A stretch of DNA of 64,000 nt from Pseudoalteromonas sp. N1230-9. Its GTDB lineage: Bacteria; Pseudomonadota; Gammaproteobacteria; Enterobacterales; Alteromonadaceae. A model generated the notes under the pieces. That model saw only the letters and a program-made list of their open reading frames with translations, ran no database searches and had not been told where the DNA came from. The translations under genes and the position numbers were made by a program. The DNA lies in contig NZ_CP090419.1 in assembly GCF_032716425.1 (NCBI RefSeq), forward strand, positions 1,924,001-1,988,000. Direction: 5' to 3'. Positions 37,830-38,581 of the stretch are shown piece after piece; position 1 is the first letter of the stretch; each line of letters opens with the position of its first letter.

Positions 37830-37906
37830 ACAACCGTAGCTCAGTTGGTTAGAGCACTACCTTGACATGGTAGGGGTCGGTGGTTCGAATCCACTCGGTT
37901 GTACCA
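37830..37906 (+). tRNA. tRNA-Val (anticodon GAC)
   Basis: This is a complete cloverleaf of 77 bases including encoded CCA. The acceptor ACAACCG pairs with CGGTTGT. The D-arm is GCTC...GAGC, the anticodon stem CTACC/GGTAG encloses loop TTGACAT (anticodon GAC), and the T-loop is TTCGAAT. It decodes GUC and GUU valine codons. Confidence 0.96.
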
Positions 37907-37930
37907 AGATATAGGTATAACCAAAGGAAA

Positions 37931-37994
37931 AAGCACTACCACTCTTAATGGCCCAGTCCAAAGGTCGGTGGTTCGAATCCACTCAGTTGTACCA
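37931..37994 (+). pseudogene. tRNA-like element 1, 5' truncated
   Basis: The T-arm and CCA end match tRNA-Val (GGTGGTTCGAATCCACT...TGTACCA), but the acceptor 5' strand and D-arm are missing. The anticodon arm is replaced by ACTCTTAATGGCCCAGTCC. The same replacement, diverged, occurs in elements 2-5. It cannot fold as a normal tRNA. Confidence 0.7.
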
Positions 37995-38028
37995 AAACAT
38001 TTAATCCTCTTCAGAATTAAATGCCTGT

Positions 38029-38105
38029 ACGACCGTAGCTCAGTTGGTTAGAGCGCTACCTTGACATGGTAGAGGTCGGTGGTTCGAATCCACTCGGTCG
38101 TACCA
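38029..38105 (+). tRNA. tRNA-Val (anticodon GAC), second copy
   Basis: This is an intact 77-base cloverleaf. Acceptor ACGACCG pairs with CGGTCGT. The D-arm, anticodon stem CTACC/GGTAG with loop TTGACAT, and the T-arm are as in the first copy, differing at a few compensated positions. CCA is encoded. Confidence 0.96.
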
Positions 38106-38136
38106 ATTCTCTATTTAAGCGGTTTCTCCTAAAAAT

Positions 38137-38221
38137 AAATAATTAGCTCAGTTGGTTAGAGCGCTACCACTCTCTATGACCCGTACCAAAGTCGGTGGTT
38201 CGAATCCACTCGGTCGTACCA
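38137..38221 (+). pseudogene. tRNA-like element 2
   Basis: The 85-base element keeps the D-arm (GCTCAGTTGGTTAGAGC), the T-arm and CCA. The 5' acceptor strand reads AAATAAT and cannot pair with CGGTCGT. The anticodon stem-loop is replaced by a 30-base segment beginning CTACCACTCTCTATGACCC with no complementary GGTAG. Confidence 0.75.
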
Positions 38222-38252
38222 ATTCTCTATTTAAGCGGTTTCTCCTAAAAAT

Positions 38253-38337
38253 AAATAATTAGCTCAGTTGGTTAGAGCGCTACCACTCTCTATGACCCGT
38301 ACCAAAGTCGGTGGTTCGAATCCACTCGGTCGTACCA
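38253..38337 (+). pseudogene. tRNA-like element 3, identical to element 2
   Basis: This is the second unit of the 116-bp tandem repeat, with the same altered acceptor 5' strand and anticodon region. Confidence 0.75.
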
Positions 38338-38383
38338 ATTTATTCAAATTCTCATAATTTTATCGAGCTAAAATCAACATTAT

Positions 38384-38468
38384 ACAGTTGTAGCTCAGTT
38401 GGTTAGAGCACTACCGCTCTCTATGACCCACGCCAAATTCGGTGGTTCGAATCCACTCGGTCGTACCA
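38384..38468 (+). pseudogene. tRNA-like element 4, acceptor partly retained
   Basis: The 85-base element starts ACAGTTG, which could pair partly with its 3' CGGTCGT through G-T pairs. The D-arm, T-arm and CCA are intact. The anticodon region CTACCGCTCTCTATGACCC followed by ACGCC is a diverged version of the segment in elements 2, 3 and 5. Confidence 0.7.
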
Positions 38469-38496
38469 ATACTCTATTTCAGAGTCTTCATCTAAA

Positions 38497-38581
38497 AAAT
38501 AATTAGCTCAGTTGGTTAGAGCGCTACCACTCTCTATGACCCGTACCAAAGTCGGTGGTTCGAATCCACTCGGTCGTACCA
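38497..38581 (+). pseudogene. tRNA-like element 5
   Basis: The 85-base body matches elements 2 and 3 but sits behind a different spacer (ACTCTATTTCAGAGTC). It has the same altered anticodon region and unpaired acceptor 5' strand. Confidence 0.72.

Follow-up and report, generated by a model that had tools for sequence, protein, structure and literature searches.

In E. coli, the tyrT operon has rtT repeats (Rfam RtT), which are arranged in tandem downstream of tRNA genes, and copy the 3' end of the tRNA together with its CCA. They have a role at the end of the operon, and form the comparison for a reading of the present elements as Rho signals that is considered below. YrlA, which is Y RNA-like (Rfam RF02553), is said to carry a tRNA-like module. 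The elements described here, which lie in a tRNA-Val array of Pseudoalteromonas sp. N1230-9, resemble the rtT repeats in that they are also tandem repeats downstream of tRNA with a tRNA 3' end and CCA. This is an analogy and not membership of the family: the tRNA and the sequence are different, copies are found also between genes, and the elements keep a D-arm or rebuilt 5' halves and have a common replacement of the anticodon arm. The RtT model found no match at E<=1 in positions 34000-42000 of the window (the whole 64,000-nucleotide stretch of DNA analysed), nor at E<=0.1 in five loci from relatives. Nor are the elements members of YrlA, the best score being 28.3 bits in one relative (locus L063) against a cut-off of 69. 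They are like tRNA pseudogenes in that their tRNA origin can be recognised although no usable anticodon arm is left, but differ from them in that the replacement is conserved across much of the genus, changes more slowly than the spacers and has a position-specific fold.

A further comparison is with glyW-cysT-leuZ of E. coli, whose transcript contains a 3'ETS, a tRNA spacer that pairs with RyhB and acts as a sponge for this sRNA (PMC6191717). The likeness is that a spacer of a tRNA precursor may be a functional RNA; the parts of that paper on which we draw do not describe the 3'ETS as a tRNA copy, unlike the elements here. In the open-access literature searched, we recognised no paper on these elements. 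They are of a known kind, that of tRNA-derived repeats in tRNA operons, with the rtT repeats as the nearest idea.

The tRNA-Val array and its five remodelled copies

Positions 37830-38581 contain two intact tRNA-Val(GAC) genes (V1 and V2) and five elements derived from tRNA-Val (E1 to E5), all on the plus strand. V1 (37830-37906) and V2 (38029-38105) are both called by ARAGORN, and score 69.2 and 71.5 bits respectively with the Rfam tRNA model. E1 (37914-37994, delimited by array comparison and folding) has lost its D-arm and is predicted to form a long hairpin. E2 (38141-38221, from the Rfam tRNA model and array comparison) has the sequence of the D-arm and T-arm without the acceptor 5' strand. 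By array comparison, E3 (38257-38337) is a tandem copy of E2, and E5 (38501-38581) has the same 81-bp sequence as E2 and E3 within different flanking spacers. E4 (38384-38468) is the most tRNA-like of the five, with acceptor strands, D-arm and T-arm. The original prediction described the elements as interleaved with the tRNA genes; this is apt for E1 only, since E1 lies between V1 and V2 while E2-E5 all follow V2.

The anticodon stem-loop is replaced in all five elements, and ARAGORN calls no tRNA in any of them. The replacement segments were located by pattern matching at 37936-37961 (E1), 38164-38189 (E2), 38280-38305 (E3), 38411-38436 (E4) and 38524-38549 (E5), and are conserved. The pattern CTACCN{0,1}RCTCTYNATNRCCCRNNCCAA has five matches in the window, one per element, and none in 100 shuffles, which bears out the proposal that the five share the same anticodon-arm replacement beside two real tRNA-Val genes. 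It is also as first stated that T-arm sequence and the encoded CCA are kept in all five, and D-arm sequence in four. A short open reading frame in the replacement (ATG/TTG-ACC-CGG...) was considered and dismissed on inspection, because many copies have in-frame stops and the frames are inconsistent.

With the Rfam tRNA model (RF00005, cut-off 29), E4 alone is above the cut-off, at 35.1 bits. E2, E3 and E5 score 23.3 and align to model positions 8-63 only, the acceptor 5' strand being absent, and E1 has no match at E<=1. Among 59 distinct 28-nt T-arms, all five T-stem pairs are present in 20, four in 25, and two or three in 14; thus 39 of the 59 lack at least one pair. Besides tRNA, no Rfam family reaches its cut-off on the elements' own strand in the window or in five relative loci. 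HPnc0260 matches the opposite strand, overlapping tRNA-derived sequence, with one match above the cut-off in L063 (61.4 against 59); these matches look spurious. The five elements are remodelled dead copies of tRNA-Val(GAC).

It had been suggested that such copies might be processed to CCA-ended, tRNA-like RNAs that act as decoys, occupying RNase P, modification enzymes or EF-Tu. E4 exceeds the tRNA cut-off, as do five further copies in five relative loci, two of them in L101 (42.6 and 44.9 bits), and for these few a decoy function is possible. For most copies it is unlikely, to judge from their sequences: E2, E3 and E5 begin at model position 8, only 20 of the 59 T-arms are undamaged, and most E1-type copies are predicted to be rods. 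As a general explanation of the elements we consider it very unlikely.

Distribution, conservation and copy number

Homologues were sought with R1, a 43-nt sequence-only model of the replacement, at a threshold of E<=0.01 and with stricter filters for large searches. R1 matches 62 of 108 Pseudoalteromonas genomes, and one of 119 genomes sampled from the order, this one being the window's own genome. The own genome has five matches, all within this tRNA-Val array. The remaining 46 genus genomes have no match at E<=0.01, and those element-free genomes that were inspected (e.g. loci L027, L029-L031, L035 and L036) have plain spacers between their tRNA-Val genes, which implies that the element is dispensable. 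A pattern scan of 84,980 species (GTDB representatives) gave 26 stretches, all titled Pseudoalteromonas and coming by manual count from 23 genomes; viral contigs gave no match to the replacement pattern. Within the collections searched, the family is therefore restricted to Pseudoalteromonas.

Twenty-three of the 26 stretches have a tRNA-Val gene in the same array. Two of the other three (L041 and L058) lie at contig ends, and the third (L047) has, just upstream, a tRNA-Val reduced to its 3' part, which starts at the anticodon loop. In L047 (EB27, near 4131) the array is interrupted at a tRNA-Val without its 5' half, and in L058 (T1lg88, near 7823 on the reverse strand) unrelated, coding-like sequence adjoins the first element; either site may be an insertion or an assembly join. 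The general layout of the related loci is a tRNA-Val gene, zero to four elements, a second tRNA-Val gene and then more elements, all on a single strand, with a maximum of 12 copies in P. prydzensis. The family is old, genus-wide and housed in the tRNA-Val array, and is not a local oddity. No copy of the replacement was found outside the home array in the own genome, at the sensitivity of R1, and hence there is no sign there of mobile or SINE-like dispersal; with the lack of a viral match, this led us to reject an origin from a mobile element or attachment site. The description of the segment as foreign does not hold up either, given that no further copy of it turned up in the own genome at that sensitivity and that it can pair with the tRNA-derived strands that flank it.

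Across 39 loci, with 146 elements aligned, the replacement columns have 0.3-1.9 bits (median 1.5), compared with 0.0-0.7 in the outermost 20 upstream spacer columns and 0.0-1.1, mostly <=0.5, in 30 downstream ones. Identities were compared for 347 locus pairs from 35 loci, of which 280 have a fourfold-site identity below 0.45. For these divergent pairs the mean identity is 0.32 at fourfold sites, 0.81 in the segment, 0.62 in the downstream spacer and 0.57 for the shuffled segment. The upstream stretch has an identity of 0.69-0.76 (mean 0.70 in the 280 pairs), a figure raised in part by stretches that take in the 3' end of a preceding element, so that the comparison relies on the downstream spacer. 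The replacement is conserved beyond both the spacers and the synonymous sites, the fourfold sites being saturated. Conservation in relatives had been set beforehand as the test that could refute a function, and it was found, both in the number of genus genomes matched and in the replacement columns. The versions of the replacement are clade-specific (e.g. GATCACCC, ATGGCCC and TATAACCCGC), and this fits vertical descent; homogenisation within a genome does not prevent divergence between species.

The neighbouring 339-aa protein, which we take to be DUF3080-like, is 30.9-66.2% identical in the relatives matched, except in L049 (95.0%) and L060 (99.4%); against Pseudoalteromonas sp. CO133X, the identity is 99.4% for this protein and 100% for a NorM-like neighbour. 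Inside its reading frame (36696-37715), a minus-strand tRNA-Lys of 98 nt is called by ARAGORN (37316-37413), and recurs in L060. The call is probably spurious, since it has no Rfam match at E<=1.

Positions 38107-38222 are identical to 38223-38338, so that E2 and E3 form 116-bp tandem units. A genome of the same species (G115, locus L107) has the order V1-E1-V2-E4-E5, without E2 and E3, and the same order is found in strain CO133X (two stretches, L060 and L045). The E2/E3 duplication is therefore probably recent. It supports the view that a single altered copy was amplified, as opposed to five tRNAs having decayed alike. The original prediction had further offered gene conversion as a source of the identity of the D- and T-arms with the real tRNAs, and to this extent it finds some support: a stem variant CCACC occurs in the elements of L013 (1/1), L101 (10/11) and L106 (3/3), and in L013 the neighbouring tRNAs also carry it, which suggests exchange of the 5' half of the elements with real tRNAs.

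These observations raise the question of whether the elements are neutral debris, that is, dead copies of no use to the cell which arose through unequal recombination and whose likeness is maintained by gene conversion, both among themselves and with the real tRNAs. The identical tandem units and the different number of R1 matches in two genomes of one species (five against three) would agree with this, as would the loss of T-stem pairs in many copies, the decayed copies in several other tRNA arrays (see below) and the 46 genus genomes without a match. However, conversion within genomes alone cannot hold an identity of 0.81 across species that are saturated at fourfold sites, and whose downstream spacers are near the shuffled level; no donor is found outside the array in the own genome; and the dependence of folding on position, described next, is not expected of drift. 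On balance we find neutral debris rather unlikely.

Predicted folding and transcription signals

In the copies that lie between genes and lack a D-arm, pairing is possible between the strands of the replacement and the tRNA-derived strands to either side. The pairings are ACTAC with GTRGT (formerly the T-stem 5' strand), ACTCTTG with CAANNGT, and GGA with TCC, together with an outer stem near the old acceptor. For E1, the predicted hairpin has an energy of -23.4 kcal/mol and an outer stem of GGTATAAC and GTTGTACC (the fold was computed on the identical sequence from L107).

Folding z-scores were calculated from 200 dinucleotide shuffles per copy, with the copies classed by position (two, in L040 and L105, were unplaceable). 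The D-less copies between genes (40 distinct, from 24 loci) have a mean z of -2.84, with 33 below -2; the outer stem is present in 39 of the 40 and the inner pairing in 30, and the locus means are below -2 in 22 of the 24 loci. After the last gene, D-less copies (n=40, 19 loci) have a mean z of -0.13, with one below -2 and the outer stem in eight, and copies with a D-arm (n=44, 18 loci) have a mean z of -0.42, again with one below -2. Neither class of after-gene copies has a locus mean below -2. The sole D-arm copy between genes, in L011, is not stable (z +0.89). An earlier run with 100 shuffles and a cruder class rule, which misplaces a few copies (e.g. in L040 and L011), gave the same picture; under these cruder classes the z for the inner part alone was -1.72 (n=31), -0.92 (n=37) and, for D-arm copies, -0.24 (n=37). 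These predictions show that the fold is stable in D-less copies between genes, for the most part a single long hairpin, and that it is usually not stable in copies after the last gene.

A G-to-A change at column 61 is present in 16 of 39 between-gene sequences; it disrupts pair 61:71 of the T-stem and, in the hairpin, replaces the wobble at 27:61 with an A-U pair. These E1-type copies lose part of the tRNA structure while the long hairpin gains a better pair, which goes against their being decoys. Covariation is weak as proof of the Val hairpin: three of 29 pairs are changed on both sides, a figure reached by 92 of 500 shuffles, and although the covariation score of 0.123 is greater than in all 500 shuffles (mean 0.107), kinship alone can yield that. 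RNAalifold gave no consensus structure for the 39 Val sequences, and a rod for a subset of 14 only. Two other general folds were rejected. Of the 40 between-gene copies, just four have a cloverleaf with new arms as their minimum-energy fold (a few more adopt yet other folds), and a rebuilt D-hairpin in the D-arm copies is unsupported as a rule, because that part has a mean z of +0.14, with three of 38 below -2.

A promoter-like site (TTGATT-17-TATATT) was found by scanning upstream of V1, at 37756-37784 on the plus strand. Alone it is weak, since there are three such sites in 37600-39100 and the shuffle mean is 3.0; a similar block, CTTGATY...CTATATATTA, precedes V1 in most of the related loci examined. 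No intrinsic terminator was called inside the elements on the plus strand of 37830-38620. A 10-bp hairpin after the array (38621-38646) is terminator-like only on the minus strand, for the convergent gene at 38675-38989. This minus-strand gene encodes a 104-aa SMR-like protein, probably a guanidine exporter, and upstream of it is a Guanidine-II riboswitch (39007-39054, minus strand; 40.2 bits, cut-off 32).

An end-of-operon signal has also to be considered, by analogy with rtT. The replacement segments are C-rich and G-poor (36-40% C, 16-19% G), and might aid Rho after the last tRNA, the hairpin masking them between genes. It would be in keeping with this that the stable fold is kept only between genes, that the only plus-strand terminator site after the array (38899-38922, three G-C pairs) falls within the convergent gene, some 320 bp downstream, and that a strict script found downstream intrinsic terminators in just 6 of 69 locus rows, which are not independent. 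The same script likewise found none in array rows without elements, however, and the elements are thus not needed to account for the lack of an intrinsic terminator. We regard a Rho-related role as distinctly unlikely. It is also conceivable that the elements are base-pairing spacer RNAs, serving as a sponge or regulator in the manner of the E. coli 3'ETS. Their primary sequence is conserved within a tRNA transcript, but the segment is predicted to be paired inside the between-gene hairpin, and we consider this highly improbable.

The explanation that we prefer, in which our confidence is about evenly balanced, is that decayed tRNA copies were spread by tandem duplication, and that the copy between the genes (E1) is kept as a self-folding RNA spacer. 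On this explanation the transcript would need a self-contained hairpin between V1 and V2, which would keep tRNA remains from pairing wrongly with V1 or V2, or mark a site for cutting the precursor, or both. Copies after V2 would escape the demand for a hairpin, as might be reflected in their variable number and in the outer stem being mostly absent from them.

Relics in other tRNA arrays

Other tRNA arrays of the own genome also hold decayed tRNA copies in their spacers. For the copies of tRNA-Glu(TTC), matches stronger than E 1e-7 were obtained in 13 of 60 genus genomes, counting the own genome; the relics are found in L065 (spacers after 2510 and 2909), L115-L119 and L165. The Glu elements are predicted to form two stable hairpins, with a mean z of -2.78 (14 spacers, 12 distinct relic stretches) and an RNAalifold energy of -16.65, 97% of cells being paired; covariation in them is not above that of shuffles.

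The Glu copy of several relatives has the sequence ACACCGC-ACTCTCTATGCACGACG, and Val E2, E3 and E5 have CTACC-ACTCTCTATGACCC, such that 10 identical letters directly follow the 5' strand of the anticodon stem. The sequence CTCTCTATG is common to the Glu relics of several relatives and to Val elements, and the own-genome Glu copy has CAATCTATG in place of the 10-letter motif. Zero-mismatch matches to RCTCTCTATGNACNNCG occur in 12 of 108 genomes, of which nine were placed in tRNA-Glu arrays (G092, G106 and G124 being left out); matches with one mismatch are Val copies and others, at control level. When the E2 segment was compared with four distinct Glu segments from relatives, 0-4 of 2000 letter shuffles reached the observed similarity for three of them and 70 for the fourth. 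For the own Glu segment the figure is 235 of 2000, and the TTGATCACCC form of Val shows no similarity to Glu (246-1742 of 2000 against all six Glu rows). Homology of the Val and Glu replacements was accordingly not adopted and stays a lead, the shuffles favouring three of the Glu segments from relatives and not the own segment or the TTGATCACCC form.

It is worth adding that decayed copies of tRNA-Phe, -Leu, -Gly, -Pro and -Met were seen by eye in the own genome (L066, L068, L070, L071 and L075), in or after other tRNA arrays. Short tandem repeats, with TCTCGTA-like, TCTAATT-like and AAAAATCC-like units, also follow tRNA arrays (L067 after 977, L068 after 1706, and L119 after its relic).

We tentatively propose, as something that may but need not hold, that dead tRNA genes are reused in Pseudoalteromonas as a class of spacer RNAs within its tRNA arrays. 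There would be at least two families (Val-GAC and Glu-TTC), in which the anticodon arm would have given way to a segment that pairs with the remnants of tRNA on either side of it; in some species the two families have CTCTCTATG in common in this segment. The resulting autonomous hairpins would insulate the neighbouring tRNAs or help to cut them, with selection acting on copies between genes and being relaxed after the last gene.

Duplication enlarges tRNA arrays, and within the shared transcript the copies left behind could base-pair wrongly with the functional tRNAs beside them. Should dead copies between genes indeed persist only as self-closed hairpins, this would amount to a rule by which long tRNA arrays remain processable, and would account for conserved spacer RNAs of tRNA operons that family libraries miss. 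Pseudoalteromonas offers a natural test series for such a rule, with copies both between and after genes, and from zero to 12 copies, in about a hundred genomes.
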